From: Stenotrophomonas maltophilia
GTDB lineage: Bacteria > Pseudomonadota > Gammaproteobacteria > Xanthomonadales > Xanthomonadaceae
Reading direction: 5' to 3'
Assembly: GCF_006974125.1 (NCBI RefSeq)
Contig: NZ_CP037858.1
Location: 3,038,001 to 3,102,000 of the forward strand
DNA: 64,000 nucleotides
Shown piece by piece: positions 21,880 through 54,084 of the stretch. The position numbers and the translations under genes are program-made. How positions within the stretch are numbered: position 1 is the stretch's first letter; the number at the start of each line of letters is the position of its first letter. The notes under the pieces were generated by a model. That model had not been told where the DNA came from. It searched no databases and saw nothing but the letters and a program-made list of their open reading frames with translations.

Positions 21880-22506
21880 ATGGACAACCGAACCAAAGCC
21901 CTGAACCTGGTTCCGATGGTGGTCGAGCAGACCAGCCGCGGCGAGCGTGCCTACGACATCTATTCGCGCCTGTTGAAGGAGCGCCTGATCTTCCTCGTGG
22001 GCCCGATCGACGATCACATGGCCAACGTGGTGGTGGCGCAGTTGCTGTTCCTGGAATCGGAAAACCCGGAAAAGGACATCAACATCTACATCAACTCGCC
22101 GGGTGGCGTGGTCACCGCCGGCATGGCGATCTACGACACCATGCAGTACATCAAGCCGAATGTGAGCACCACCTGCATCGGCCAGGCCGCCTCGATGGGC
22201 GCCCTGCTGCTGGCCGCGGGCGAAGCCGGCAAGCGCTACGCGCTGCCGAACTCGCGCGTGATGATCCACCAGCCGCTGGGCGGCTACCAGGGCCAGGCGA
22301 CCGACATCGACATCCACGCGCGTGAGATCCTGACCCTGCGTTCGCGCCTGAACGAGGTGCTGGCCAAGCACACCGGCCAGTCGCTGGAGACGATCGCCCG
22401 TGACACCGAGCGCGACAACTTCAAGAGCGCCTTCGAGGCGCAGGCCTACGGTCTGGTCGACCAGGTCCTGGAGCGTCGTCCGGATGAGTCGATCCAGGCC
22501 GGCTGA
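21880..22506 (+). CDS. clpP: ATP-dependent Clp protease proteolytic subunit
   Basis: This 208-residue ClpP forms the 14-subunit serine-protease chamber that degrades substrates fed by ClpX. The triad is visible: Ser in [11 protein letters not shown], His in [10 protein letters not shown] and Asp in RDTERDNF. The oxyanion strand [11 protein letters not shown] is intact. It stands between tig and clpX; the spacing to clpX is 126 bp, so clpX may have its own promoter as well. Confidence 0.97.
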
Positions 22507-27016: not shown

Positions 27017-27091
27017 GGGTGCTTAGCTCAGCGGTAGAGCGTCTCCTTTACACGGAGAGGGTCGGGGGTTCGAAACCCTCAGCACCCACCA
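27017..27091 (+). tRNA. tRNA-Val (anticodon TAC)
   Basis: A 75-base cloverleaf with acceptor gggtgct/agcaccc, anticodon TAC and encoded CCA, only 12 bases after the hupB stop, so it may be co-transcribed with hupB. Confidence 0.95.
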
Positions 27092-27117
27092 CAGCACCGC
27101 GGTAAAAGTTTGAGTGT

Positions 27118-27194
27118 GGAGCGGTAGTTCAGCTGGTTAGAATGCTGGCCTGTCACGCCGGAGGTCGCGGGTTCGAGTCCCGTCCGCTCCGCCA
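27118..27194 (+). tRNA. tRNA-Asp (anticodon GTC), copy 1
   Basis: A 77-base cloverleaf with acceptor ggagcgg/ccgctcc, anticodon GTC and encoded CCA; first of four identical copies. Confidence 0.96.
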
Positions 27195-27203
27195 TTCAAC
27201 GAG

Positions 27204-27234
27204 GCCTCCGGCCAAAAGCTGGAGGCTTTGTTTT
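27204..27234 (+). terminator. Terminator-like hairpin after tRNA-Asp copy 1
   Basis: gcctcc and ggaggc with an A-rich loop, followed by ttgtttt. Confidence 0.75.
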
Positions 27235-27277
27235 CTCCCCGGTCCAGGCCGGCTGAAAACAAAAAAGGTAACAACGC

Positions 27278-27354
27278 GGAGCGGTAGTTCAGCTGGTTAG
27301 AATGCTGGCCTGTCACGCCGGAGGTCGCGGGTTCGAGTCCCGTCCGCTCCGCCA
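27278..27354 (+). tRNA. tRNA-Asp (anticodon GTC), copy 2
   Basis: Identical in all 77 bases to copy 1. Confidence 0.96.
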
Positions 27355-27361
27355 CTACATC

Positions 27362-27398
27362 GAGGCCCCCGGCCTGAAGCCGGGGGCCTTGTCTTCTC
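27362..27398 (+). terminator. Terminator-like hairpin after tRNA-Asp copy 2
   Basis: ggcccccggc and gccgggggcc, a perfect 10-bp stem followed by ttgtcttct. Confidence 0.75.
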
Positions 27399-27441
27399 CC
27401 CGGAAGGTTCGGGAAGAAGGCGAAAAGGTTTTTGCAAGAAC

Positions 27442-27518
27442 GGAGCGGTAGTTCAGCTGGTTAGAATGCTGGCCTGTCACGCCGGAGGTCGCGGGTTCGA
27501 GTCCCGTCCGCTCCGCCA
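27442..27518 (+). tRNA. tRNA-Asp (anticodon GTC), copy 3
   Basis: Identical in all 77 bases to copy 1. No obvious terminator follows; the spacer to copy 4 has an A-rich stretch and a TATACT box near 27595. Confidence 0.96.
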
Positions 27519-27624
27519 TTGCAGAATTCTTAAGTCCCTGTGAAAAAACTTTGAAAAAAGTGTTCATCGGGCTGGGTTTCCAGGGAGTCTTCGGATATAC
27601 TGGGCGCCTGCAAAGTTTCAGCGC

Positions 27625-27701
27625 GGAGCGGTAGTTCAGCTGGTTAGAATGCTGGCCTGTCACGCCGGAGGTCGCGGGTTCGAGTCCCGTCCGCTCCGCC
27701 A
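27625..27701 (+). tRNA. tRNA-Asp (anticodon GTC), copy 4
   Basis: Identical in all 77 bases to copy 1. Confidence 0.96.
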
Positions 27702-34789: not shown

Positions 34790-34880
34790 GGAGAGGTGGC
34801 AGAGTGGTTGAATGTACCTGACTCGAAATCAGGCAGGCGTTTATAGCGCCTCGGGGGTTCGAATCCCCCCCTCTCCGCCA
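34790..34880 (+). tRNA. tRNA-Ser (anticodon CGA)
   Basis: A 91-base class II tRNA with a long variable arm, acceptor ggagagg/cctctcc, anticodon loop ctcgaaa reading CGA and encoded CCA. Its 3' end is repeated at 35090-35113. Confidence 0.96.
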
Positions 34881-34890
34881 GATAAAGAAG

Positions 34891-34917
34891 AAAGCCGCCC
34901 ACTGGGCGGCTTTTTTC
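34891..34917 (+). terminator. Terminator after tRNA-Ser(CGA)
   Basis: aagccgccc-act-gggcggctttttt, a strong stem with a T run. Confidence 0.93.
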
Positions 34918-35089
34918 TTGGCCAACGTTCGGGAGATGCAGGCGGTTGTTGTAGTGATCGACACCTCTGATGCGGGGGGATGAGAACCCCCGACGGGGTT
35001 CGACGGTTCTGCAGGAGCAGAACCGGACAGCCGTAGGCTGGCCCTGGAGCGCGTAGCGCGGAAGGGTCGGGTGCATGGATGCACCCGAC

Positions 35090-35113
35090 AATCCCCCCCC
35101 TCTCCGCCAGATA
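35090..35113 (+). repeat. Duplicated 3' end of tRNA-Ser(CGA), possible att scar
   Basis: About 24 bases (aat, C run, tctccgccagataaa) repeat the last part of tRNA-Ser(CGA) and its flank at 34862-34886, differing only by one extra C (8 instead of 7). The rest of the tRNA is absent. The intervening 34918-35089 holds short palindromes and no gene. A 3'-end tRNA duplication is the usual mark of tyrosine-integrase attachment. Confidence 0.65.
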
Positions 35114-35157
35114 AAAAAAAAGGGCTGCCGAAAGGCAGCCCTTTTTTTTTATCTGGC
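35107..35157. terminator. Bidirectional terminator in a long inverted repeat
   Basis: gggctgcc-gaaa-ggcagccc is flanked by nine A on the left and ten T on the right, and the symmetry extends to gccagat/atctggc. It can stop transcription from both strands. Confidence 0.9.
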
Positions 35158-35234
35158 GCGGGACGCAACGCGCGTTTCGCGCGTCGCCCGAGACGTTGCC
35201 GCTGGGCACATCCACGCATAGCGTGCGAGGGAAG

Positions 35235-35282: not shown

Positions 35283-38200
35283 TCAGAACGTGTAGCCCAG
35301 CCCCAGCTGTATGCCGTTCTGGGTCTGGCCGTCGCGCCGCTCGCCCACGTAATCAACCATCACCGACAGGCGCTTGCTGGCACGGCTGGTCACGCCCAGG
35401 TTCCAGGCGAGGACCTGTTCGCCGACGGTCTGGCTGCTGGCACTGAACAGCAGGTCCGGGGCAGCGGCGAAGCCGTTGCTGTAGCGGGCCTGGGTATCGC
35501 CAAGCTCCTTCTGCCAGACCACGCGGGCACGCGGGGTGATGCGCTCGCCGTTGTTGCCGTCGAAGGTCTTGAACAACTGCAGGCCAGCGCCCACGCGGAT
35601 GCTCTCCAGGCTGCCACTGCGGCCGACCAGTGCGGCTGCGCCCCGGCCTTCGTTGAAGTGCGTGGCCGAGGTGCGCGTGTAGTCGATCACCGGCAGCAGC
35701 GGCTGGATCACCACGCCGTTGCTGGTGGTGAACGAGAACGCATGCTCCACGCGCGCGGAAATCGCGTCGTTGCTGTACTTCGCACGCAGCGGTGCCTGCA
35801 GGCCCTCGATACCCTCGATGCTGCGACGGGTGTCGTGGCGAAGATCGGTGTAGCGGACGGCGGCGGACAGGTAGCCGCGCGAATAGAGCGCGTCCACGTA
35901 GCCGCCGATATCCAGCGCGCGGACATCGCCGCTGAATCCTGCACCTTCGCTGGACCGGGTCGACATGTCGGCCGCGGCAAGGCTCACGCCCAGTGTCACA
36001 CGGTCGTCTGCCAGGCGGGTATCGGCACCAAGTGCGATGCCGCCGATGGTATGGCTCAGGCCGGCGACGCCGGCATCCCCCTCGATACGGCCGTGGCTGC
36101 CGAAGCCCCGCGCCCAGAAGCTGCGGTTGCGTCCGGCGTCGCCCGCATCACTGCCCGCATCCGCCGGTGCGACCAGGTGCATCGCCAGCTGGTTGAACAG
36201 GCGATTGCCGGTCATCGCAGATTGTGCCGAGGCCGTCTGTGCGGCCTGTGCAGCCAGGCCGTCCGCATCGCCACCGCTGCGCGATGCTGCCTGGTGCTGC
36301 TGCACGACGTTGCCGATGCTGCCGACCAGTGCGGAATCGGCCAGGCGCAGGCTGGCATGCCCGTCGCCACGCAGTGCTCCCGCTTGGCGCGCGATGTCAT
36401 CGCGGTCAGCGAACTGCAGGGCGCCCAGCAGTCCACTCATCGAGGAAGTGCGCTGCGCAGCCGCCTGTTGCAGTGCGATGCCCAGGCCGTCGCCGGACGC
36501 GGCATTGCCGAACAAGCGTGTGTCGTCGAAGGAAGGATTGGCGGTCAGCCACAGGCCACTGCCGGTCTGGTTGACGGTGAAGCTGAGCAGTGAATTGTGG
36601 CGAGGGCGGAACACCGCGCCGGGAGCGGTGAGATCCACCGCGCTGCCGGCCTCGCCACTGCGCTCGACGTACTGGAAGCGCCCTTCGATGAAGTCCGACA
36701 CCGGCGCTGCGCGGGTCAGGGTATCGGGCGTAGCGGTGCGGCACCACAAGCCGGCGTACTCACCGTTCGACGGGCCGCAGGGGGCGACGGGCAGCTGCAG
36801 GGCGCTGGAATCCACCTGGGTTCCGACCAGATGGTTCTGCTGGCCTGCCGGGAAGAACGCCTGCTTGACGTCCAGCGTCAGCCTGGCGCTGGGGGCAATG
36901 CTCAGCACGGCGCGGTTGATGTTGCCGTACAGGTTGTAGTCACCGGACCGCCGGTCCTCTTCGACCAGGAAGTAGCGGGCTTCTTCCAGCGTCAGTGCCG
37001 GTGCGGTGCGCTGGCTGTCGACCTGGAAGGCCAGGTTCGCGCCGTCCTTGAGGTTGATGTAGCGCCCCTTGCCGATCCGGAAGCGTTCGCTGGTGAACAC
37101 GTCGTCGCCACCCGGCGCGAGTGCTTCCAGCGAGTAGGGGCGCATGACGATGCCGGAGGGCGCGAGCGTTCCGCCCTCGTTGATGTCGATCGTGGCATTC
37201 AATGAACCGTGTCCGGTCAGCACGCCGCCGCGTTCGACCACGGTCAGGCTGCGCAGTGCGCCCTGCTGCAGCTCGATGCGCCCGCCATTGCGGGCGCCGA
37301 TGGCTTCGGCGTGGTGGATCCAGCCATTCTGCTGCAGGCGCAGGGTGCCGCCATCGGCCACCACATACTGGGCGGCGGAGGCGGTATCCAGTGACCAGAC
37401 ACCGCCCCTGCCGATGCGGATCACACCGAAGGCGTCGTCCAGCCGGATGTCCGGGGCCGATTGCTGGAAGTAGCGCAGGTTGGCCAGCGCGTTGGTGTAG
37501 CGCCCGCGCACGGCCAGGTTCGGATTGAGGTCTCCGCTCACTTCCTTGTCGATGGAAAGCACGTCGCCAGGCTGGACGTAACCGGCTTCGGTAACGACGC
37601 GATCACTGTAGAAGGTGACACCGGGATACGCGGTGCAGTTGCCTGCCGCGCTCTGGTCGCGGGTCGGGCAGAAGCGCGTGGCCACGGCCGCCACGTTCGG
37701 GTCGAAGTAGCGCAGGAAGCCCGACTGCTGGGTCAGTTCATAGTGCGCCTGGACGATGCGCGCTTCGATGACCGCGAAGTCGGTCGGGCCGAACATGTCC
37801 CGGTAGTACTTGATGTACTTGTCCTGCCCCGGGTACGGGGTAGGGCCGTTCGGGCCGGATTCGCCATGGATGCCCAGCACCGTCTCCGTGTAGCTCCCGT
37901 GCGCCGGCAGCAGGCCGAACTGCGTCACCTTGCGCTTCACGCCGGCAACGAAGGCGTCGGCGCAGGCCGAGTAGCAGCCGCCGTCCAGTACGGTATCCAG
38001 CCCATGCTGGCGGATGATGGCGCCCATGCCCACGCCACCGGAGGCGGCCCCGCCCGGCGAGTTGCGGAACACCACCTGGCGCAGCGGCGTACCACGGGCC
38101 TGCGCGGCCAGGATGTAGGCCTCCAGCGTCTGCGGATCGGTCGCCAGCACGTTGCCGGTGTAGTAGAGCGTGTCTCCATTCACATGGAAGGCACTGGCAT

Positions 38201-38297
38201 GGGCCTGCGGCGCGGCAGCGATGCCGAGAAGTGCTGCAACAAGGGCACTGCCGAGGACGGTGGCGCGACGGGCGGGGAGGGCGGGATATCGATGCAT
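35283..38297 (-). CDS. Autotransporter with N-terminal ClpP-like serine hydrolase domain
   Basis: This 1004-residue protein has a signal peptide (cut after QAHA, about residue 34) and then an unusual passenger start. Residues about 41-150 read like a ClpP/crotonase-fold serine hydrolase: RNSPGGAASGG (SPGG at 80-83), Ser110 in CYSACADAF 30 residues later, and His133 in LPAHGSY 23 residues after that, close to ClpP spacing. Cys108 and Cys112 flank the Ser, as in periplasmic ClpP-like proteins. Residues about 260-600 look like beta-helix passenger. The last 270 or so residues (from RNRSFWARGFG) are the autotransporter barrel ending in LGLGYTF. A GTG at 38309 could add four residues. The ClpP-like function and its substrate are inferred. 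Confidence 0.85.
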   Translation of the reverse strand: MHRYPALPARRATVLGSALVAALLGIAAAPQAHASAFHVNGDTLYYTGNVLATDPQTLEAYILAAQARGTPLRQVVFRNSPGGAASGGVGMGAIIRQHGLDTVLDGGCYSACADAFVAGVKRKVTQFGLLPAHGSYTETVLGIHGESGPNGPTPYPGQDKYIKYYRDMFGPTDFAVIEARIVQAHYELTQQSGFLRYFDPNVAAVATRFCPTRDQSAAGNCTAYPGVTFYSDRVVTEAGYVQPGDVLSIDKEVSGDLNPNLAVRGRYTNALANLRYFQQSAPDIRLDDAFGVIRIGRGGVWSLDTASAAQYVVADGGTLRLQQNGWIHHAEAIGARNGGRIELQQGALRSLTVVERGGVLTGHGSLNATIDINEGGTLAPSGIVMRPYSLEALAPGGDDVFTSERFRIGKGRYINLKDGANLAFQVDSQRTAPALTLEEARYFLVEEDRRSGDYNLYGNINRAVLSIAPSARLTLDVKQAFFPAGQQNHLVGTQVDSSALQLPVAPCGPSNGEYAGLWCRTATPDTLTRAAPVSDFIEGRFQYVERSGEAGSAVDLTAPGAVFRPRHNSLLSFTVNQTGSGLWLTANPSFDDTRLFGNAASGDGLGIALQQAAAQRTSSMSGLLGALQFADRDDIARQAGALRGDGHASLRLADSALVGSIGNVVQQHQAASRSGGDADGLAAQAAQTASAQSAMTGNRLFNQLAMHLVAPADAGSDAGDAGRNRSFWARGFGSHGRIEGDAGVAGLSHTIGGIALGADTRLADDRVTLGVSLAAADMSTRSSEGAGFSGDVRALDIGGYVDALYSRGYLSAAVRYTDLRHDTRRSIEGIEGLQAPLRAKYSNDAISARVEHAFSFTTSNGVVIQPLLPVIDYTRTSATHFNEGRGAAALVGRSGSLESIRVGAGLQLFKTFDGNNGERITPRARVVWQKELGDTQARYSNGFAAAPDLLFSASSQTVGEQVLAWNLGVTSRASKRLSVMVDYVGERRDGQTQNGIQLGLGYTF

Positions 38298-42853: not shown

Positions 42854-43212
42854 ATGCATTTACTTATGGCGGAGAAGGGAATCTCCGCGTTCTGCAGGTA
42901 TATGCATTTTCGGCAAAATCATTTTGTGCGTCCGCTTTATTTGACGTACGTCATAAAAATAACGAGCGTGATTCACATGCCGCTGGCGCCATCGGTCGCA
43001 CAGTGCCGCCATTCGTCATGCGAAACCGGGGAGTTTTCGCCTTGATGGACACGTTGGCCTGCCTGTTCCAGGTGCGGCCGCGTGAAGATGTGAAGATTTT
43101 CAGAAGTTAATGAAGCCAGGCCTTGTTCCCCTGCCGGGAGCCGGGGTGGGCCGCATTGTCTTCAAAAAAACTTGCCTGCAGTGCCATCTGGTCTTTTCAT
43201 GGAGATTTACCG
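42854..43212 (+). promoter_or_regulatory. AT-rich regulatory region before the giant autotransporter
   Basis: This 359-bp gap is clearly richer in A and T than the rest of the window (for example tcataaaaataacgagcg). It contains a perfect 12-bp palindrome tgacgtacgtca (42942-42953), overlapping a TTGACG that could be a -35, and a second palindromic hint tatgcattttcggcaaaat upstream. These are candidate promoter and operator elements for the surface protein gene. No gene was seen in it. Confidence 0.45.
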
Positions 43213-46200
43213 ATGAACCGCATTTACCGTCTGGTTTTCAATCGCGCCCTCGGCGTAATGCAGGTTGCATCGGAGGTCGCCCAGAATCCCGGCGGAAGCG
43301 CGGTCTGCACGGCACGGGTGCCGCGATTGCGGGCGCACCAGCTGGCGGTCGCACTGGCGGCCACGCTGGCCAGCGGTTCGGCATTCGCAGCGTGCACAGG
43401 CACCACCACCGTCGACTGCGACGGCACCACCAACATCAACAACTACTCCAACGCGACCAACGGCCTCACGCTGAACATCGCCTCGGGTGCGTTGCTGCGT
43501 ACGCCACCGATCGTAGGTGGCGGCAACGCAGCAACGCTGACCGGCGACAACGTGACAGTCAACAACAGCGGCACGATCGATCCTAGCTCGATCATCCTCG
43601 CGTCGCCCGGCCTGGTGGTCGGCAATGGTCTGGCCAACAACAGCGCGATCCTCGTCAACAACAATTCCGGCGGACAGATCAAGGGTGTCGTCAACATCGC
43701 AACGCTGCTGGGTTTCGGTGGCCAGGCACTGGTGGCACAGAATGTCAATGGCACCACCACCATCAACAATGCCGGCCTGATCAGTACGTCGTTGATCGGC
43801 GTAGGTAGCGTTTCCGACGCGACCACGGTGGTGACCTATGGCGGCGCGGCAGCCAATGTGACCAACACAGGCACCATCGACGGGCGCGTCGGCCTGGGTG
43901 CTTCCGGCGGAAATGCGTTCCTCAATGCGGGGGCGGTCAGCGGCAGCGTTCACCTGGGTGATTCAACCGGCGGAAATACCTTCACCGCAGTGTCGGGTTC
44001 CAGCGTTGTGGCCGGCGGCGGCACCGCCATTGCCGGCGTGATTACCGGTGTCACCGGGGTGAAGGTTGCGGCTGCGGGATCGGTCGATGCCGGTACCGGC
44101 AGCGGTGCCACCAACAACACACTGGTGCTGCAGAACAGCGCTTCCGGTACGGGATCCGGCACCGGTGGAGCGGTGACAACGCTGGGTTGGAACCAGTACC
44201 TCAACTTCCGGAAGCTGACCGTCAACAGTGGTACCTGGAATCTGCAGGGCGGATGGACGGGAGCCGGGGCGACGACGCTCAATGACGGCCTGGTCAATTT
44301 CAATGATGCCGGTTCCTTCGGCACAGGGCTGTTCACCGCCAACGGCGGTGCCATCGCCGCTTCCACGGCCGGCCTGAACCTGGCCAACGCTTTCAGCCTC
44401 GGTGGCAACCTGTCTCTGTCCGGAACCAATGCGTTCGGCCTGGGGGGCGTCCTTTCAGGCGCTGGTGGGCTGACCGTCAACAACACCGGCATCGTCACTC
44501 TGGGCGGCGCAAACCTGTTCTCCGGCGGCGTCAATCTCAATGCCGGTGGCCTGCTGCTGGGCAATGCGGGTGCTCTCGGCTCCGGCACCCTCACCGTGGG
44601 TGGCACGGCGTCGCTGGACACCACCGCCGCGTTCAACCTGAGCAACAACCTGATCGTCAGCGGGGGCGGCACGCTCAACCTGCTCGGCAACAACAGTCTT
44701 GGCCTCAACGGATCGATCTCCGGCGCCGGCAACCTGGTCAAGGCCGGTCCGGGCACGCTCACCTTGAATGGTGCCAACCTGCTCACGGGCTCCTTCGCGG
44801 TCACCGGTGGTGCGCTGGCCTTGGGCGCCGGTGGCAGCCTGTCGCCGACAAGTGCGATTTCGCTGAGCGCAGGCACCAACCTCGATCTCTCGGTTGCGGC
44901 CAGCCAGACCATCGGCTCACTTGCCGGATCCGGTGCGCTCAACCTCGGCGCGCGCAGCCTCACGTTGGGCGGCCTGAACACCAACACCACCTTCTCCGGC
45001 GTCATCGGCGGTGTCGGTGGCGCGCTGGTCAAGGTCGGTACGGGTACCCAGACCCTGTCTGGTGCCAGTACCTTCACCGGTGGCGTCGCGCTCAACGGCG
45101 GCGGCCTGCTGCTGGGCAATGCAGGCGCGCTGGGCACCGGCGCGCTCAGTGTCGGCGGCAACGTGTCCCTCGATGGTACCGGGTCGCTTGCTCTCGCCAA
45201 CGCGGTCAATCTGGGCGCGGGCAGCATCCTCAATCTGTCCGGGAACCAGGCGTTGACCTTCAACGGCGTCATCGGTGGTACCGGCAGCCTGGTCAAGAAC
45301 GGTGCGGCCACCCTGACCCTCAACAACGCCAACACGTTTGGTGGAGGGCTGTCGCTCACCGCCGGTGGACTGGTGCTTGGCAACGGCGGTGCGCTGGGAA
45401 CCGGCGCATTGAATGTCGGTGGTGCAGTGACGCTTGATGCCAGCTCGGCACTGACCGTGGGCAACGGCATCAACCTGGGACTGGGTGGTTCGCTCAATGT
45501 GCTGGGGGGCAACGCGCTGACGCTGGGTGGCGTGATCGGTGGTACCGGCAGCCTGGTCAAGAACGGCGCCTCCACGCTGACGCTGGGTGGGGCCAACGCG
45601 TTCACCGGCGGCCTGAACGTGAATGCCGGCAAGGTGGCGCTGGCCAGTGGCGGCAGCCTGGCGGCAACCGGGGCGGTGAGCCTGGCCGGGGCCGGCGCCG
45701 AACTGGATATCTCACTCGGCGGCAACCAGACCATCGGTGCGTTGTCCGGTGTGGCTGGCAGCACGCTTTCGCTGGGCAGCAGCACGCTCACCTTTGGTGA
45801 TGCCACCAACCAGACGTTCGCGGGCGCGATCGGTGGTACCGGCGGCCTGGTCAAGCAAGGGATCGGCATCCAGACGCTGACCGGCGCCAATACCTTCAGC
45901 GGTGGGGTGAATCTTGCGGCCGGTGGCCTGGTGCTGGGCAACGCCGGTGCGCTGGGAAGCGGCGCACTGTCGATCAGTGGCAACGGTTCGCTGGACACCA
46001 CCGCAGCGATGAACCTGGGCAATGCGATCAACCTCGGCGCAGCGCTGACACTGCCGGGCAGCCAGAACCTGACCCTGGGCGGCGACATCACCGGCACTGG
46101 CAGCCAGGTCAAGAACGGTGCGTCGACACTGACCTTGAACGGCACCAACACCTTCACGGGTGGCTTGAGTGCAAACGCTGGCGCCCTGCTGCTGGGCAAC

Positions 46201-49200
46201 AGCGGCGCACTCGGTACGGGGACGCTGGGCATCGGCGGCAACGTCTCGCTCGATGGTGGCGCCGCGCTGAATCTGGCCAACAACGTGTCCCTGGGCGCGG
46301 GAGCCGCGCTGTCGTTGCCGGGCTCGCAGGCCATCACGTTGGGCGGGGTGCTCTCCGGTGCGGGCAGGCTGGTGAAGAACGGTGCCACCACCTTGACTCT
46401 CAATGGCGCCAACACCTTCGGCGGTGGGTTGACCGTCAACGGTGGCGGACTGGTGCTGGGCAATGCCGGTGCGCTGGGCACCGGTGCATTGTCGGTGGGC
46501 GCCAACACCACGCTGGACAGTTCGGTGGCGCTGAGCCTGGCCAACGGCGTCAATCTTGGAGCAGGGGCAGTGCTTAACCTGCTGGGCGGCCAGAATGTAG
46601 CACTGGGCGGTGTCATTGCCGGCACCGGCAGCCTGGTCAAGAACGGTGCGGCGACACTGGCGTTGAACGGGCCCAATACCTTCAGCGGGGGTGTTGGCCT
46701 CAACGCGGGCCTACTGCAGCTGGGCAATGCACAGGCACTGGGTACCGGCCAGCTGGACGTGGGCGGCAACGCGTCGCTGGATGCAGCATCGGCGCTCACC
46801 GTAAGCAACAACATCGGCCTCGCTGCCGGTGCCAATCTTTCCGTGCTGGGCAGCAATGACCTGACGCTCACCGGTCCGGTATTCGGTGCAGGCGGGTTGA
46901 TCAAGGATGGCTTGGCGCAACTCACTCTGTCCGGTGCCAATCTCTTTACCGGAGGCACCACCGTCAATGCCGGTGTACTGGCGTTGGGGGCAGGTGGCAG
47001 CCTTGCCGCAGCCGGTGCGGTGAATCTTGCCGGTGCGGGAGCGACACTGGACATCTCCGCAGCCGGCGCGGCACAGACCATCGGTGCGCTGAACGGCGTG
47101 GCGGGCAGCCAGCTTGCACTGGGCGCGCAGTCGCTCACGTTCGGCGGTGCCAGCGACGGCAGCTTTGCCGGCGTGATCGGTGGCACCGGTAGCCTGGTCA
47201 AGAACGGCACGGGCGTGCAGACGCTGTCCGGTGCAAACACCTTCAGTGGTGGCCTTGCGCTCAATGCGGGTGGCCTGATTCTCGGCAACGCCAGCGCGCT
47301 GGGGACGGGGGCGCTCGGTATCGGCGGCACCACCACGCTCGACAGCACCGTGGCGCTGAACCTGGCCAATGCGGTGAACTTTGGTGCCGGTACGCAGCTG
47401 ACGCTGGGCGGCAGCAACGATGTCACCCTTGGTGGCGTGGTGGCCGGCAACGGCAGCCTGATCAAGAATGGTGCGGGCCTGCTGACCCTCAACAACACCA
47501 ATACCTTCGGTGGCGGCCTGACTTTGAATGGTGGCGGCCTGGTGGTCGGTGCGAATGGTGCGCTAGGTACCGGCGCGCTGGCGGTGAATGCCAGTACCGC
47601 GCTGGATGCAGGCGCGGCAGTGACGCTCGGCAATGCAATCACGCTGGGCTCGGGCGTTGCACTGACATTGCCTGGCAGCAACGCGCTGACGCTGGCGGGT
47701 GTGATCGGTGGCAACGGCAGCCTGGTCAAGAACGGCGCTACCACGCTGACGCTGTCCGGTGCCAATACCTACACCGGCGGTACCACCATCAACGCCGGCA
47801 CGCTGGCGCTGGGCACGGGTGGAAGTCTCGCCGCAGCGGGTGATGTCACGCTGGGCGCGGGCGCTGGCTTCGATATCTCCGGTGCCGGCAGCAGCCAGAC
47901 CATCGGTGCGCTCAACGGTGCGGGCGGCAGCACGCTGGCGCTGGGCGGAAATTCATTGACCTTCGGTACGGCCAGCAACGCCGCGTTCGACGGCGTGATC
48001 AGTGGCGGCGGCGGTCTGATCAAGGTAGGCGCGGGCGTACAGACGCTGTCCGGCGCCAACACCTTTGGCGGCGGCGTGACGCTCAACGCAGGCGGGCTGG
48101 TGCTGGGCAATGACGCGGCGCTGGGCACGGGTACCTTGACCGTCGGCGGTGCCGCCACGCTGGATACCACCGGCCTGGCAACGCTGGCCAACAACATCGC
48201 GCTCAACGCCGGGCTGACCGTGCTCGGCAGCAACGCGCTGACACTCAACGGTGTTCTTTCCGGGGCCGGCAGCCTGACCAAGAATGGCGGCGCAACGCTG
48301 ACCCTGAACGGCATCAACACCTACACCGGTGGCACCAACATCAACGCCGGCACGCTGGCGCTGGGGGCCGGCGCCAGCCTGGCGGCGAGCGGCACGGTGA
48401 ACCTCGCTACCGGTGCCACGCTGGATCTGTCTGCCGGCAGCGGCACGCAGGTGTTCGGCACCCTGGTCGGCAACGGTACGGTGAACCTTGGTGCCAACTC
48501 GATCGAAGTGGGCGGCGCCACCAATGGCACCTTCAGTGGCTCGATCGCAGGCACGGGTGGCCTGACCAAGGTTGGTACGGGCATCGAGACGCTGACCGGT
48601 GCCAACACCTACACCGGCGGCACCTTCATCAATGCCGGTACGCTGGCGATTGGTCCGGGCGGCAGCCTGGCAGCCACCGGCGCGGTGACGCTGGGTGCAG
48701 CAGGCACCGGCTTCGATATCTCCACCGCAGGGGCCAACCAGACCATCGGCTCGTTGAACGGCGTGGCCGGCTCGACGGTGAGCCTGGGGGCACAGACGCT
48801 GACACTCGGTGGTGTTGGCAACAGCCTCTTCGATGGCGCGATTTCCGGCACGGGTGGCCTGGTCAAGAATGGCGCCGGCATCCTCACGCTGGGCGGTGCC
48901 AATCTGTTCAGTGGTGGCGTTGCACTCAACGGCGGTGGCCTGGTGGTCGGCAACAACGCTGCGCTCGGCAGCGGTGCGTTGACGGTCGGAAGCAACGCAA
49001 CACTGGATGCATCGACCGCTGCCAGCCTGGCCAACAACATCAGCCTGGCAGCGGGTGCCAATCTTGATCTGCTCGGCAGCCAGGCGCTGGCGCTGGGCGG
49101 TGTGATCTCGGGTACAGGTGGGTTGATCAAGGACGGTGCGGCCACGGTAACCCTGAGCGGTGCCAACACCTACACCGGGGGTACCACCATCAACAGCGGC

Positions 49201-52200
49201 ACGCTGGCGATCGGTGCCGGTGGCAGCCTCGCCGCAACCGGCGCGGTGAACCTGGCCGGTACCGGCACGCTCGACATCTCGGCGGGCAACCAGGCCATCG
49301 GTTCGCTGGCCGGCGTGGCCGGCAGCACGGTGGCGCTGGGCGGCAGCACGCTGACCCTGGGCGGCACAGTGGACAGCACCTTCAACGGTGCGATCAGCGG
49401 CAATGGTGGGCTGATCAAGAACGGCGCGGGCGTGCAGACGCTCACTGGGGCCAGCACCTTCAGCGGTGGCGTGGCGCTCAACGCCGGTGGCCTGGTGGTC
49501 GGCAACAACGCTGCGCTGGGCACCGGTGCGGTGACGGTCGGTGGCGCGGCTACGCTCGATTCGAACACCGCGGTGACGCTGGCCAACAACTTCATCCTCA
49601 ACAACGCGTTGACCGTCCTCGGCAGCAACAATCTGACCCTCAACGGCAACCTGAGTGGTACCGGCAGCCTGACCAAGGAGGGTGCGGCGACGCTGACCCT
49701 GAACGGCACCAACACCTATACCGGTGGCACCAACATCAACGCCGGTACGTTGGCACTGGGTGCTGGCGCGAGCCTGCACGCCAGTGGCATCGTCAACCTG
49801 GCCTCGGGTGCGACGTTCGATCTGTCGGCGGGCAGCGGCACGCAGCAGTTCGGTACCCTGATCGGCAACGGTACGGTGAATCTGGGCGCCAACACGCTGA
49901 CGATCGGAGACGCCACCAATGGCACCTTCAGTGGTTCGGTGGCGGGCACCGGTGGCCTGGTCAAGGAAGGTTCGGGCACCCAGACGTTGACCGGCACCAA
50001 TACCTTCACCGGTGGCACCACCATCAACGCTGGCACGCTGGCGATCGGCGCCGGTGGCAGCCTGGCTGCCACGGGTGCGGTGAATCTGGCCAACGCCGGT
50101 ACCGCCTTTGACATCAGCGCGGGCGGCCCGCAGGCCATCGGCTCGCTGGCAGGCGTGGCCGGCAGCACCGTGGCGCTGGGTGGCAGCACGCTGACACTCA
50201 ATGGCGTGGGCAACACTACGTTCGCTGGTGACATCACCGGCACCGGTGGCCTGGTGAAGAACGGCGCTGGCGTGCAGACCCTGAGCGGCAGCAATACCTT
50301 CAGCGGCGGCGTGGCACTCAATGCCGGTGGCCTGGTGCTGGGCGACAACGGTGCACTGGGAACCGGCACGCTGACCGTGGGCGGCAACGCCAGCCTGGAC
50401 GGCACCAGCGCGTTGACCCTGGCCAACACCGTGCAGCTGGCCAGCGGCACGCTGACCCTGGCCGGCGGCAACACGCTGACCTTGAACGGCCCGATCAGCG
50501 GCGCTGGCGGCCTGCTCAAGGATGGCGCAGCGACGGTCACCCTGGGCGGTGCCAGCACCTATACCGGTGCCACCACCATCAACAGCGGCACGCTGGCGGT
50601 GGCGGCCGGTGGCAGCCTGTCCGGTGCCAGCACGGTGAACCTGGCCGGCGCTGGCACGTTGGACATCAGTGCCGGTGGCAGCCAGAGCATCGGTGGCCTG
50701 GCTGGCGTAACCGGCTCCAGCGTGGTGCTGGGTGGTGCAACCCTGACCACCGGCGGCAACAATGGCAGCACCACCTTCGGCGGTGTGCTCAGTGGCACCG
50801 GCGGCCTGGTGCAGAGCGGCACCGGCACGCTGACCCTGAGCGGCGACAACGTCTATACCGGCGGCACCACCATCAATGGCGGCAGCACGCTGCAGATCGG
50901 CAACGGCGGCAGCACCGGCTCGGTGCTGGGTGACATCACCAACAACGGCAGCCTGGTCTACAACCTCGGCACCACGGCAACCGTGGGTGCTGTGGTCAGC
51001 GGCAGCGGCGGCCTGACCCAGGCCGGCAGTGGCACGCTGGTGCTGACCGGCAACAACACCTACACCGGCGGTACCACCATCAATGCCGGTGGCACGCTGC
51101 AGGTCGGCAACGGCGGTGCGACCGGTGCGATTGTCGGTGACATCACCAACAACGGTGCGCTGGTGTCCAACGTGGCCGGCAACACCACGCTGGGCGGCAC
51201 CATCAGCGGCGCTGGTGGCCTGACCCAGGCCGGCAACGGCACGCTGACCCTGACCGGCAACAACACCTATACCGGCGGCACCACCATCAATACCGGCGGC
51301 ACGCTGCAGGTGGGCAATGGCGGTGCGACCGGCGCGATCACCGGCAATGTCGCCAACAACGGCAGCCTGGTGTTCAACGTCGGCGGCAACACCACGGTCG
51401 GCGGTGCGATCAGCGGCAGTGGTGGCCTGACCCAGGCCGGCGCCGGCGTGCTGACCCTGGTAGGCAACAACAGCTACACCGGCGGCACCACCATCAATGC
51501 CGGCGGCACGCTGCAGGTCGGCAACGGCGGGGCAACCGGCGCCATCGCCGGCGACATCACCAACAATGGTGCGTTGATTTCCAACGTGGCCGGCAATACT
51601 GCGCTGGGCGGCACCATCAGCGGTACGGGTGGCCTGACCCAGGCGGGCAGTGGGTCGCTGGTGCTGACCGGCACCAGCACCTACACCGGCGGTACCACCA
51701 TCAACGCCGGCGGTACGCTGCAGCTGGGCAATGGCGGTGCGACCGGCTCGATCGTCGGCGACATCACCAACAACGGCACGCTGGTGTCGAACGTGGCGGG
51801 CAACACCACGCTGGGGGGCACCATCAGCGGCAGCGGCGGCCTGACCCAGGCCGGCAGCGGCACACTGACCGTGACCGCCAACAACACCTACACCGGGCCG
51901 ACCACGATCAACGCAGGCGGCACGCTGCAGGTGGGCAACGGCGGTGCGACCGGCGCGATCGGCGGCAACGTCACCAACAATGGCAGCCTGGTGTTCAACG
52001 TGGGTGGCAACACCACCGTCGGCGGCGCCATCAGCGGCAGCGGTGGCCTGACCCAGGCCGGCAGCGGCACGTTGATCCTGGGCGGCAACAACACCTATAC
52101 CGGCGGCACCACCATCAACACCGGCGGCACGCTGCAGGTTGGCAACGGCGGCGCGAGCGGATCGATTGCCGGCAACGTCAGCAACAATGGCAGCCTGGTG

Positions 52201-54084
52201 TTCAACGTAGGTGGCAACACCACCGTCGGTGGCACCATCAGCGGCAGCGGTGGCCTGACCCAGGCCGGCACCGGAACGGTCACCCTGACCGGCAACAACA
52301 CCTACACCGGCGGCACCACCATCAATGCGGGTGGCACGGTGCAGGTCGGCAACGGCGGGGCCAGCGGTTCGGTCACCGGCAACATCACCAACAACGGTGG
52401 CCTGGTCATCAACACCGGCGGCACCACCACGCTGGGCGGCACCATCAGCGGTGGCGGCAGCATCGTGCAGGCCGGTCCGGGAGGCCTGAACCTGGGCGGC
52501 AACAGCGGTGGCTTCAGCGGTACCGGCCAGGTCACCGGCGGCGGCCTGAATGTCACCGGCAACATCGGCGGCCAGTGGACCATCGGTAGCGGCACCACGC
52601 TGTCCGGCACCGGCACCATCGGTGGCACTGGCGGTGGCGTGACGGTATCCACCGGGGGCGTGCTGTCGCCGGGCAATGGCCCGGGCAATGGCACCGGCAC
52701 GATCACGGTGGGGGGCAACCTGACCCTGTCGCCGGGCAGCACGCTGGGCATCGATCTGGGTGCTACAGGCAGCGACACGGTGCAGGTGGGGGGAAGTGCC
52801 AGCGTAGGTGGCAGCATCGTGCAGGTGAACACCATTTCGCCGAGCACCAGCTACCAGCAGGGCCAGCAGTACACCGTGATCAACGCGGGTGGTGGCGTCA
52901 GCGGGCAGTTCGCCTCGGCAACCACGCCGTCGGCCTTCCTGACCATCACCCCGGTCTATACCGCGAACACGGCCAACCTGCAGATCGATGTGGCGCAGAC
53001 CGCGGCATTCACCACGGCGGCGAAGACGCGCAACCAGTACAACACCGCTGCAGCGCTGGACAGCCTGCCGCAGAGTGGTTCGGCACTGGGCCTGTACAAC
53101 ACGCTGCTGATGTATGACGCGGGTACCGCGCGCGCGGCGTTCGACCAGCTGTCCGGTGAAGTACATGCGGCCAGCCGTGCGGTGCTGCTGTACGACAACT
53201 ACCTGGAGGAGGGCATCCGCCAGCGCCTGGGCAGTGAGTTGCCGACCGTGCGTGGTGAGCGTGCCTCGGCCTGGCTGGCCGGTAGTGGCAAGGTGTTCCG
53301 CCAGGACGGTGACGGCAACGGCGATGACATCCGCTCCAACCGCAATGCGCTGATGGCGGGCGTGGACTGGCAGCTGGGCGAGCACGTGGTGCTGGGTGCG
53401 GCCGCAGGCAACGAGCGGCTGGATACGCGCCTGTACGATCGCAGCTCGCGGGCCCGCCTGCGCGGCAATACGTTCGGCCTGTATGCGCAGGGCCAGTGGA
53501 ACAACGGCTTCGCGGTCGGTGGCAGCGTATCGCGCGGTGACTACCGCACGCGTACCACGCGTGAGGTGCCGCTGCTGGGCCAGACCCTGTACAGCCGCCA
53601 GGACTCGGATGTGACCATCGCGCAGGTGGAGGGCAGCTGGACCTGGACCCATGGCAAGACCCAACTGCAGCCGTATGTGCAGTTCACCAAGCACTGGGTC
53701 GACAGCGATCGCGCAGTGGAGCAGGGCGGCACTGCTGCACTGGAGCTGGAAGGCGGCAAGGACACGCTCAATGTCAGCACCGTGGGCGTGCGTGGACGCT
53801 GGGACGTGGGCAGCGGCGAGCGCTTCCCGGCGCAGCTGACGGTTGGCCTGGGCTGGCAGCACGCGTCGGGTGATACCGATGTGGCCAGCCGCAACCGCTT
53901 CGCCGTGGGTGGCAACGCGTTCGATGTCTACAGCACGGTGATGGCGCGTAACGCGCTGGTCAGCCAGGTCGGCGTGGCAGTTGGGCTCGGCCGCAACAGC
54001 CAGCTGTCGATGTTCGTGCAGGGCCAGCACGGCGATGGTCGCCGCGATGTCGGCGGGCAGATCAACCTGCGCGTGGGCTTCTGA
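43213..54084 (+). CDS. Giant repeat-rich autotransporter (PATR-type passenger)
   Basis: This 3623-residue type Va autotransporter has an extended signal peptide (MNRIYRLVFNRALGVMQVASEVAQ, with the hydrophobic core to about residue 59). From about residue 400 to 2540 it holds some two dozen ~90-residue repeats with cores such as GGTGSLVKNGAATLTL...NTFSGG (passenger-associated transport repeats) in two sub-types. From about residue 2545 come eight near-identical 69-residue units (207 bp each, 50853 to about 52500). The barrel (about 3340-3623) ends INLRVGF. The passenger is Gly/Asn/Thr/Leu-rich, typical of beta-helix adhesins. ESPR homology and the ATG at 43213 with ggag upstream support this start; a longer frame to 43123 is unlikely. 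Adhesion or biofilm function is inferred. Confidence 0.92.
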   Translation: MNRIYRLVFNRALGVMQVASEVAQNPGGSAVCTARVPRLRAHQLAVALAATLASGSAFAACTGTTTVDCDGTTNINNYSNATNGLTLNIASGALLRTPPIVGGGNAATLTGDNVTVNNSGTIDPSSIILASPGLVVGNGLANNSAILVNNNSGGQIKGVVNIATLLGFGGQALVAQNVNGTTTINNAGLISTSLIGVGSVSDATTVVTYGGAAANVTNTGTIDGRVGLGASGGNAFLNAGAVSGSVHLGDSTGGNTFTAVSGSSVVAGGGTAIAGVITGVTGVKVAAAGSVDAGTGSGATNNTLVLQNSASGTGSGTGGAVTTLGWNQYLNFRKLTVNSGTWNLQGGWTGAGATTLNDGLVNFNDAGSFGTGLFTANGGAIAASTAGLNLANAFSLGGNLSLSGTNAFGLGGVLSGAGGLTVNNTGIVTLGGANLFSGGVNLNAGGLLLGNAGALGSGTLTVGGTASLDTTAAFNLSNNLIVSGGGTLNLLGNNSLGLNGSISGAGNLVKAGPGTLTLNGANLLTGSFAVTGGALALGAGGSLSPTSAISLSAGTNLDLSVAASQTIGSLAGSGALNLGARSLTLGGLNTNTTFSGVIGGVGGALVKVGTGTQTLSGASTFTGGVALNGGGLLLGNAGALGTGALSVGGNVSLDGTGSLALANAVNLGAGSILNLSGNQALTFNGVIGGTGSLVKNGAATLTLNNANTFGGGLSLTAGGLVLGNGGALGTGALNVGGAVTLDASSALTVGNGINLGLGGSLNVLGGNALTLGGVIGGTGSLVKNGASTLTLGGANAFTGGLNVNAGKVALASGGSLAATGAVSLAGAGAELDISLGGNQTIGALSGVAGSTLSLGSSTLTFGDATNQTFAGAIGGTGGLVKQGIGIQTLTGANTFSGGVNLAAGGLVLGNAGALGSGALSISGNGSLDTTAAMNLGNAINLGAALTLPGSQNLTLGGDITGTGSQVKNGASTLTLNGTNTFTGGLSANAGALLLGNSGALGTGTLGIGGNVSLDGGAALNLANNVSLGAGAALSLPGSQAITLGGVLSGAGRLVKNGATTLTLNGANTFGGGLTVNGGGLVLGNAGALGTGALSVGANTTLDSSVALSLANGVNLGAGAVLNLLGGQNVALGGVIAGTGSLVKNGAATLALNGPNTFSGGVGLNAGLLQLGNAQALGTGQLDVGGNASLDAASALTVSNNIGLAAGANLSVLGSNDLTLTGPVFGAGGLIKDGLAQLTLSGANLFTGGTTVNAGVLALGAGGSLAAAGAVNLAGAGATLDISAAGAAQTIGALNGVAGSQLALGAQSLTFGGASDGSFAGVIGGTGSLVKNGTGVQTLSGANTFSGGLALNAGGLILGNASALGTGALGIGGTTTLDSTVALNLANAVNFGAGTQLTLGGSNDVTLGGVVAGNGSLIKNGAGLLTLNNTNTFGGGLTLNGGGLVVGANGALGTGALAVNASTALDAGAAVTLGNAITLGSGVALTLPGSNALTLAGVIGGNGSLVKNGATTLTLSGANTYTGGTTINAGTLALGTGGSLAAAGDVTLGAGAGFDISGAGSSQTIGALNGAGGSTLALGGNSLTFGTASNAAFDGVISGGGGLIKVGAGVQTLSGANTFGGGVTLNAGGLVLGNDAALGTGTLTVGGAATLDTTGLATLANNIALNAGLTVLGSNALTLNGVLSGAGSLTKNGGATLTLNGINTYTGGTNINAGTLALGAGASLAASGTVNLATGATLDLSAGSGTQVFGTLVGNGTVNLGANSIEVGGATNGTFSGSIAGTGGLTKVGTGIETLTGANTYTGGTFINAGTLAIGPGGSLAATGAVTLGAAGTGFDISTAGANQTIGSLNGVAGSTVSLGAQTLTLGGVGNSLFDGAISGTGGLVKNGAGILTLGGANLFSGGVALNGGGLVVGNNAALGSGALTVGSNATLDASTAASLANNISLAAGANLDLLGSQALALGGVISGTGGLIKDGAATVTLSGANTYTGGTTINSGTLAIGAGGSLAATGAVNLAGTGTLDISAGNQAIGSLAGVAGSTVALGGSTLTLGGTVDSTFNGAISGNGGLIKNGAGVQTLTGASTFSGGVALNAGGLVVGNNAALGTGAVTVGGAATLDSNTAVTLANNFILNNALTVLGSNNLTLNGNLSGTGSLTKEGAATLTLNGTNTYTGGTNINAGTLALGAGASLHASGIVNLASGATFDLSAGSGTQQFGTLIGNGTVNLGANTLTIGDATNGTFSGSVAGTGGLVKEGSGTQTLTGTNTFTGGTTINAGTLAIGAGGSLAATGAVNLANAGTAFDISAGGPQAIGSLAGVAGSTVALGGSTLTLNGVGNTTFAGDITGTGGLVKNGAGVQTLSGSNTFSGGVALNAGGLVLGDNGALGTGTLTVGGNASLDGTSALTLANTVQLASGTLTLAGGNTLTLNGPISGAGGLLKDGAATVTLGGASTYTGATTINSGTLAVAAGGSLSGASTVNLAGAGTLDISAGGSQSIGGLAGVTGSSVVLGGATLTTGGNNGSTTFGGVLSGTGGLVQSGTGTLTLSGDNVYTGGTTINGGSTLQIGNGGSTGSVLGDITNNGSLVYNLGTTATVGAVVSGSGGLTQAGSGTLVLTGNNTYTGGTTINAGGTLQVGNGGATGAIVGDITNNGALVSNVAGNTTLGGTISGAGGLTQAGNGTLTLTGNNTYTGGTTINTGGTLQVGNGGATGAITGNVANNGSLVFNVGGNTTVGGAISGSGGLTQAGAGVLTLVGNNSYTGGTTINAGGTLQVGNGGATGAIAGDITNNGALISNVAGNTALGGTISGTGGLTQAGSGSLVLTGTSTYTGGTTINAGGTLQLGNGGATGSIVGDITNNGTLVSNVAGNTTLGGTISGSGGLTQAGSGTLTVTANNTYTGPTTINAGGTLQVGNGGATGAIGGNVTNNGSLVFNVGGNTTVGGAISGSGGLTQAGSGTLILGGNNTYTGGTTINTGGTLQVGNGGASGSIAGNVSNNGSLVFNVGGNTTVGGTISGSGGLTQAGTGTVTLTGNNTYTGGTTINAGGTVQVGNGGASGSVTGNITNNGGLVINTGGTTTLGGTISGGGSIVQAGPGGLNLGGNSGGFSGTGQVTGGGLNVTGNIGGQWTIGSGTTLSGTGTIGGTGGGVTVSTGGVLSPGNGPGNGTGTITVGGNLTLSPGSTLGIDLGATGSDTVQVGGSASVGGSIVQVNTISPSTSYQQGQQYTVINAGGGVSGQFASATTPSAFLTITPVYTANTANLQIDVAQTAAFTTAAKTRNQYNTAAALDSLPQSGSALGLYNTLLMYDAGTARAAFDQLSGEVHAASRAVLLYDNYLEEGIRQRLGSELPTVRGERASAWLAGSGKVFRQDGDGNGDDIRSNRNALMAGVDWQLGEHVVLGAAAGNERLDTRLYDRSSRARLRGNTFGLYAQGQWNNGFAVGGSVSRGDYRTRTTREVPLLGQTLYSRQDSDVTIAQVEGSWTWTHGKTQLQPYVQFTKHWVDSDRAVEQGGTAALELEGGKDTLNVSTVGVRGRWDVGSGERFPAQLTVGLGWQHASGDTDVASRNRFAVGGNAFDVYSTVMARNALVSQVGVAVGLGRNSQLSMFVQGQHGDGRRDVGGQINLRVGF
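50853..52508 (+). repeat. Tandem 207-bp repeats within the autotransporter gene
   Basis: About eight consecutive units of exactly 207 bp encode NTYTGGTTINAGGTLQVGNG...GGLTQAGSGTLTLTGN-type 69-residue repeats. Boundaries recur at 51060, 51267, 51474, 51681, 51888, 52095 and 52302. Near-identity at the DNA level suggests recent expansion and potential for copy-number change. Confidence 0.9.

Follow-up and report, generated by a model that had tools for sequence, protein, structure and literature searches.

Among autotransporters, the known serine-enzyme passengers include subtilisin-like and chymotrypsin-like ones and GDSL esterases. The autotransporter proteases of the S8 (subtilisin-like) and S6 (chymotrypsin-like, SPATE) classes consist of an N-terminal enzyme-like domain, a stalk and a PF03797 barrel. 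The peptidase ClpP belongs to a different class (MEROPS S14, PF00574), and has stand-alone exported relatives with a CxSxC motif, which we take to be of the COG3904 type. COG3904 itself appears as a table entry in PMC3091676. The available part of a survey from 2008 gives 15 subtilisin-autotransporters, and Clp either alone (118) or with NfeD (3) in all cases (PMC2605481). With respect to S. maltophilia, haemagglutinin autotransporters are mentioned in the accessible text of PMC5003817, and the accessible sections of a genome paper and of a 2024 review confine themselves, as far as autotransporters are concerned, to the presence of type V genes (PMC2643945, PMC10808757). Among the titles and abstract openings listed from the open-access literature, none describes a ClpP-like domain combined with the autotransporter layout.

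The window analyzed here is a stretch of 64,000 nucleotides from Stenotrophomonas maltophilia (G000:C1:3038001-3102000; the genome is a single 4.55-Mb contig). An original prediction had placed at 35283-38297 an autotransporter whose passenger starts with a ClpP-like serine hydrolase module akin to exported SPGG/CxSAC proteins.

Gene and domain architecture of AT1

The gene at 35283-38297 was confirmed and assigned to the minus strand, on which the prediction had been silent. It is one intact open reading frame of 1004 amino acids (the coordinates include the stop codon), and intact relatives are known; the plus-strand reading of the same positions contains three stops. When the product, which we call AT1, was scored against the 8000 candidates having the most words in common with it, the best match with a name came from Stenotrophomonas maltophilia (97% over 100%). 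Its predicted assignment as an autotransporter is likewise correct, as residues 727-983 (35349-36119, minus strand) match the autotransporter beta-domain PF03797 with 135.4 bits at a cut-off of 26. This is the sole Pfam match of AT1 at E ≤ 1, and the C-terminal residue is a Phe. Judged by its C-terminal PF03797 barrel, AT1 is a classical (type Va) autotransporter; the barrel and established knowledge together suggest that the passenger is located at the cell surface.

All further parts of AT1 lie on the minus strand as well. Residues 1-35 (38193-38297) form a putative Sec-type signal peptide, recognized by eye from a basic start, a hydrophobic stretch and the motif AHA/ASA. The ClpP-like domain of about 215 residues follows at 36-250 (37548-38192) and was identified by profile searches. 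Residues 251-590 (36528-37547) resemble a beta-helix-like stalk by their repetitive Gly-rich pattern, again seen by eye; this segment has no Pfam match at E ≤ 1. A linker that precedes the barrel (residues 591-690; 36228-36527) stands out as a conserved block in alignment A1, which comprises 19 rows, the row of P0013 having an aberrant C-terminus. AT1 has six cysteines, each with one near neighbour (108/112, 210/221 and 507/519), a spacing that would be compatible with autotransporter secretion.

AT1 thus shares with the S8 and S6 autotransporter proteases the order of enzyme-like domain, stalk and barrel, but differs in the catalytic domain. A SPATE or subtilisin autotransporter was rejected, since PF03797 is the one Pfam match and an S8 or S6 passenger domain is absent. 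The EprS model NF051851 reaches 62.3 bits compared to a cut-off of 1700, and its best stretch is in the barrel.

The neighbours of AT1 on one side are genes for a DUF6165 protein and for members of the heptosyltransferase and Kdo/WaaP-kinase families; the opposite side has a perfect inverted repeat of 25 nt and the genes for tRNA-Ser and a PP2C phosphatase. The inverted repeat (35105-35158), which is accompanied by T runs, is a likely terminator downstream of AT1, and is absent from the list of a consensus terminator scan. Two related terminator-like repeats, 75% alike and 229 nt apart, are found at 34865-35158 between tRNA-Ser and AT1. Elsewhere in the window, a tRNA-Val gene is followed by four consecutive tRNA-Asp (gtc) genes (27017-27701, plus strand), and a second, giant autotransporter frame of 3653 amino acids extends over 43123-54084 (plus strand); in the parts scanned, PF03797 is accompanied by an ESPR signal and by nine stretches of PATR.

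Relationship to ClpP and presumed active site

Alignment A3 contains 11 autotransporter domains, A4 contains 31 stand-alone exported relatives, and A2 combines both in 42 rows, which were picked for diversity with near-copies dropped. A5 is composed of ten rows of ClpP, including one identical pair. As a single sequence, the AT1 domain yielded nothing meaningful in Pfam and NCBIfam, and three meaningless matches in the PDB (E at least 0.39). PF00574 does not match the AT1 protein at E ≤ 1 nor the domain at E ≤ 0.01; at the latter threshold it matches six of the 42 relatives. Members of the family further show weaker NCBIfam matches to ClpP-related proteases and SppA.

At E ≤ 10, the profile of A3 found 36 different sequences in the PDB, and every one of them is ClpP (best E 0.0017). 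With A4 and A2, 104 and 106 sequences were found (best E 7.3e-6 and 5.6e-7, respectively), and the best 60 of the 104 as well as the best 60 of the 106 are all ClpP. Comparison of A2 with A5 by means of hhalign gave 95.6%; for A3 the value was 45% against ClpP and 24% against the ClpP of the window alone. The latter is encoded at 21880-22506 and contains NSPGG, GQAASMG and MIHQP, just as the prediction had said. In the genome of AT1, the A2 profile detected four loci at E ≤ 1, namely AT1 itself and its paralogue AT2, a stand-alone protein that resembles a lipoprotein, and this true ClpP (E 1.5e-4). Homology of the AT1 domain to ClpP is well supported by these comparisons, and we regard a relationship as nearly certain.

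That the resemblance is accidental is extremely improbable. It could be argued that no curated family matches the domain, and that the loose motif SxGG...S...H occurs in 733 of 5000 shuffles of AT1; because of this frequency, that motif alone means little. However, SxGG...CxSxC...H occurs in none of 20,000 shuffles, every PDB match of the autotransporter-only profile is ClpP, and the genome-wide search recovers the true ClpP. A chance motif was rejected on these grounds.

Six residues are invariant in all 42 rows of A2, the mean column identity of which is 20%. They are Gly82 and Gly83 of the SPGG motif, the presumed oxyanion loop (residues 80-83; 38049-38060, minus strand); Cys108, Ser110 and Cys112 of Cys-Tyr-Ser-Ala-Cys (residues 108-112; 37962-37976, minus strand), with Ser110 as presumed nucleophile; and His144, the presumed general base (37866-37868, minus strand). 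The positions of SPGG and of Ser110 within CYSAC agree with the prediction. Pro81 of SPGG is replaced by Asn in five of the 11 autotransporter rows. The invariance is in part due to construction, because 11 of the 42 rows were found in a scan with patterns that hold the Cys/Ser motif, though not the His. Therefore, 36 loci outside A2 were tested afterwards: those left out of A2 (near-copies as well as L016, L028, L033, L036, L038, L039, L041, L046, L050, L060, L063 and L065-L069), the class-sample loci, and L072. All except L092 match the profile. Within these 35 relatives, the Ser is present in 35/35 and the His in 34/34 that reach that far, one sequence ending before it; the cysteine pair is found in 31 (four are without it), and all six residues in 30. 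In a tally of 38 distinct rows of autotransporter domains, Cys108, Ser110, Cys112 and His144 are each kept in 37/37; the number per column is 37 because two rows are the halves of one split gene.

The prediction had named His133 as the catalytic His and had likened its distance of 23 residues from the Ser to that in ClpP. A His does stand at position 133 (37899-37901, minus strand), but it lies in a variable insertion and is kept in 3/19 rows of A1, 2/42 rows of A2 and 6/37 distinct autotransporter domains. For this reason, and by comparison of Ser-His spacings, it was rejected as catalytic residue. Invariance is instead found for His144, which stands 34 residues past Ser110 (19/19 in A1, 42/42 in A2 and 37/37 in the distinct domains). 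Conservation in homologues, which had been suggested as a check, thus holds for Ser110, also in the 35 outside relatives, and fails for His133. Nor is the ClpP spacing retained in AT1, where about ten more residues separate Ser and His144. The Ser-His distance is 27-34 in autotransporter rows, 22-28 in stand-alone rows and 25 in ClpP; these extra residues, and the similarity of 23 to the two latter spacings, account for the wrong choice. The GG-Ser distance is 27 in each of the 11 autotransporter rows and 29 in ClpP; in the 31 stand-alone rows it is 27-29, apart from a single row with 42.

As read by hand from the hhalign comparison of A2 with ClpP, no acid of the AT1 family stands opposite the Asp of ClpP, and a clear counterpart is lacking. 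A candidate for the third catalytic residue is Asp199 (37701-37703, minus strand), which is present in 11/11 rows of A3, 19/19 rows of A1 and 36/37 distinct domains; the one domain without it belongs to a copy that has lost the greater part of its passenger.

In the profile alignment, the SPGG loop, the Ser and the His follow in AT1 and ClpP in the same order and register. Unlike ClpP, AT1 escapes PF00574, is apparently exported, has two additional cysteines and no evident Asp, and has no ATPase partner outside the cell. A cytosolic chamber of 14 subunits with an AAA+ partner is unlikely for an exported single chain that is fused to a barrel.

The closest kin are the exported stand-alone proteins, which contain the same domain (hhalign A3 versus A4: 99.6%, E 8.8e-24) and the same invariant GG, CxSxC and His; the predicted likeness of the flanking cysteines to those of periplasmic ClpP-like proteins is supported by this. 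They differ from AT1 by the lack of stalk and barrel and by the shorter Ser-His distance. A hydrophobicity heuristic indicated an apparent upstream signal or membrane segment in 30 of the 31. The stand-alone relative in the genome of AT1 (L072; G000 3468368-3468865, plus strand) is lipoprotein-like by eye; it has kept GG, CxSxC and His, and has no Pfam or NCBIfam match.

Paralogue, possible module exchange and distribution

AT2, a paralogue of AT1, consists of 967 residues (ORF L002 10-2913, in G000 near 3369122-3372025). It contains two cysteines in all, exactly the pair beside the Ser. The two proteins are identical in 33% of the residues of the domain, 28% of the middle and 78% of the C-terminal 444 residues; for AT1 and P0007, the values are 70% for the N-domain, 22% for the middle and 75% for the C-terminal part. 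Judging from these patterns, each part of the protein has its own evolutionary course, for which exchange or gene conversion may be responsible, and the ClpP-like head is retained. AT1 and AT2 look as though their barrels had been homogenised or their heads swapped. In the phylogenetic tree, the 11 autotransporter domains form one side of a branch with a support of 100/99, which is consistent with one fusion origin. Owing to long branches, the positions of L057, L059 and some further sequences are uncertain. For the AT1 domain, dN/dS values of 0.14 and 0.10 were determined with respect to two relatives, and the rest of the protein is similar; this fits a protein retained for use.

Some copies have an unusual arrangement. 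In a record labelled S. maltophilia IAM 12423 (L053), an AT2-type and an AT1-type gene are about 4.4 kb apart; its C-terminal identities were discarded because the stretch between its two P0006 matches, which is probably masked, gives no match. An AT2 copy of genome G098 (L010) is a frame of 525 amino acids, which lacks the greater part of the passenger and in which the N-domain continues into the barrel; the counterpart of Asp199 is a Val. In genome G218, an insert of about 38 kb interrupts the AT1 gene near codon 146 (L096 and L097), and the frames at the ends of this insert are Mu-like by eye (Mor-like, GemA-like, DNA methylase).

The suggested search for the same two-domain layout in other genomes was successful. 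The A3 profile matches 53 of 91 genomes of the genus at E ≤ 0.001, and 44 of the 91 contain a match of autotransporter type, which was counted by E ≤ 1e-60, the barrel itself having been checked by Pfam for AT2 and a small number of further copies. Most of these copies are open frames of 960-1263 amino acids; that of G098 has 525, and that of G230 is in two frames. AT1-type copies with at least 68% identity occur in eight of the 91 genomes, one of them split. The domain was matched in 15 of 198 genomes of the family. A3 matched 19 of 369 in the class sample, with a whole-domain match in two, both of the genus Stenotrophomonas, and matches were found in 51 of 398 genomes of the phylum sample. 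Five of the latter are of autotransporter type, including one outside the genus (G446), for which PF03797 was confirmed. Named carriers of this type are Stenotrophomonas, Dyella, Brevundimonas, Luteimonas and 'Pseudomonas sp. CGJS7'. Among the ten proteins scanned, the Dyella and Brevundimonas copies have no shared flanking partner.

With the domain alone as query, all 20 proteins found among those of 0.55-1.75 times the length carry PF03797. When stand-alone proteins were sought with the domain as a single sequence, two were returned, P0021 (187 amino acids, 96% over 54%) and P0022 (35% over 33%). A plasmid-borne domain was rejected, as none of 72,556 plasmid records has a domain match at E ≤ 1e-5; full-length AT1 matched 55 records, and in the best 15 of the 55 the match is restricted to the barrel.

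Proposed function and its alternatives

The ClpP-like start of the passenger and its kinship to exported SPGG/CxSAC proteins are borne out by profile searches and conservation; that it acts as a hydrolase or protease we infer. As judged from sequence, the domain is likely to be an active hydrolase, and chances are evenly balanced as to whether it is a peptidase. For AT1 as a whole, we consider it fairly probable that it is an autotransporter whose passenger starts with an exported, surface-displayed, ATP-independent ClpP-like serine hydrolase.

We infer catalysis, substrate, disulfide and oligomeric state of the domain as follows. The Sec signal would export AT1, and the barrel would take the passenger to the surface, where the ClpP-like domain would reside at the far end of the beta-helix stalk. 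Ser110 would attack with His144 acting as the base, and the SPGG loop would provide the oxyanion hole. Cys108 and Cys112 probably pair, which would place a local disulfide at the turn of the nucleophile. Without an ATPase partner outside the cell, the substrates would be short or unfolded peptides, or esters. It is conceivable, if doubtful, that AT1 is a tethered single-chain surface peptidase of the ClpP fold without chamber and ATPase, whose Cys-x-Ser-x-Cys disulfide forms only after export, such that export would be the switch-on.

The main rival is a pseudoenzyme, i.e. a ClpP homologue that binds a ligand or a surface and has kept CxSxC...H for structure. Passengers of autotransporters often bind rather than cut, the Asp of ClpP lacks a clear counterpart, and the replacement of Pro81 in several autotransporter rows points in the same direction. 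However, nucleophile, base and both glycines of the oxyanion loop are invariant at a low mean column identity, and Ser and His are kept in the outside relatives, too. We judge a pseudoenzyme to be unlikely. A ClpP-like serine hydrolase with a non-peptide natural substrate, such as an ester, an acyl or a glycan-linked acyl group, is improbable. The superfamily of the ClpP fold includes non-peptidases, esterases exist among the autotransporters, and the stand-alone relatives lack a named function in the records met; yet the PDB matches listed comprise ClpP and no other superfamily member, and the weaker NCBIfam matches are to ClpP-related proteases and SppA. It is highly improbable that the site acts in cis and, in the course of maturation, cuts either the passenger of AT1 itself or a neighbouring protein, for example AT2. 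Subtilisin-like autotransporters are maturation proteases according to a title cited within PMC2605481, but nothing in the sequence of AT1 names a cleavage site.

ClpP-like exported proteins and protease autotransporters are known as such; new, at the level of sequence, would be the combination of a ClpP-like head with a PF03797 autotransporter. If active, a ClpP-like hydrolase would be an unusual enzyme on a cell surface and would extend the range of catalytic folds among autotransporter passengers of the serine-enzyme kind. The widespread exported ClpP-like proteins would gain a member that lends itself to testing, and the question arises of how a ClpP-type site works without oligomer and ATPase. 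The finding further draws attention to a putative surface protein in an opportunistic pathogen, of which we found no study in the open-access literature.
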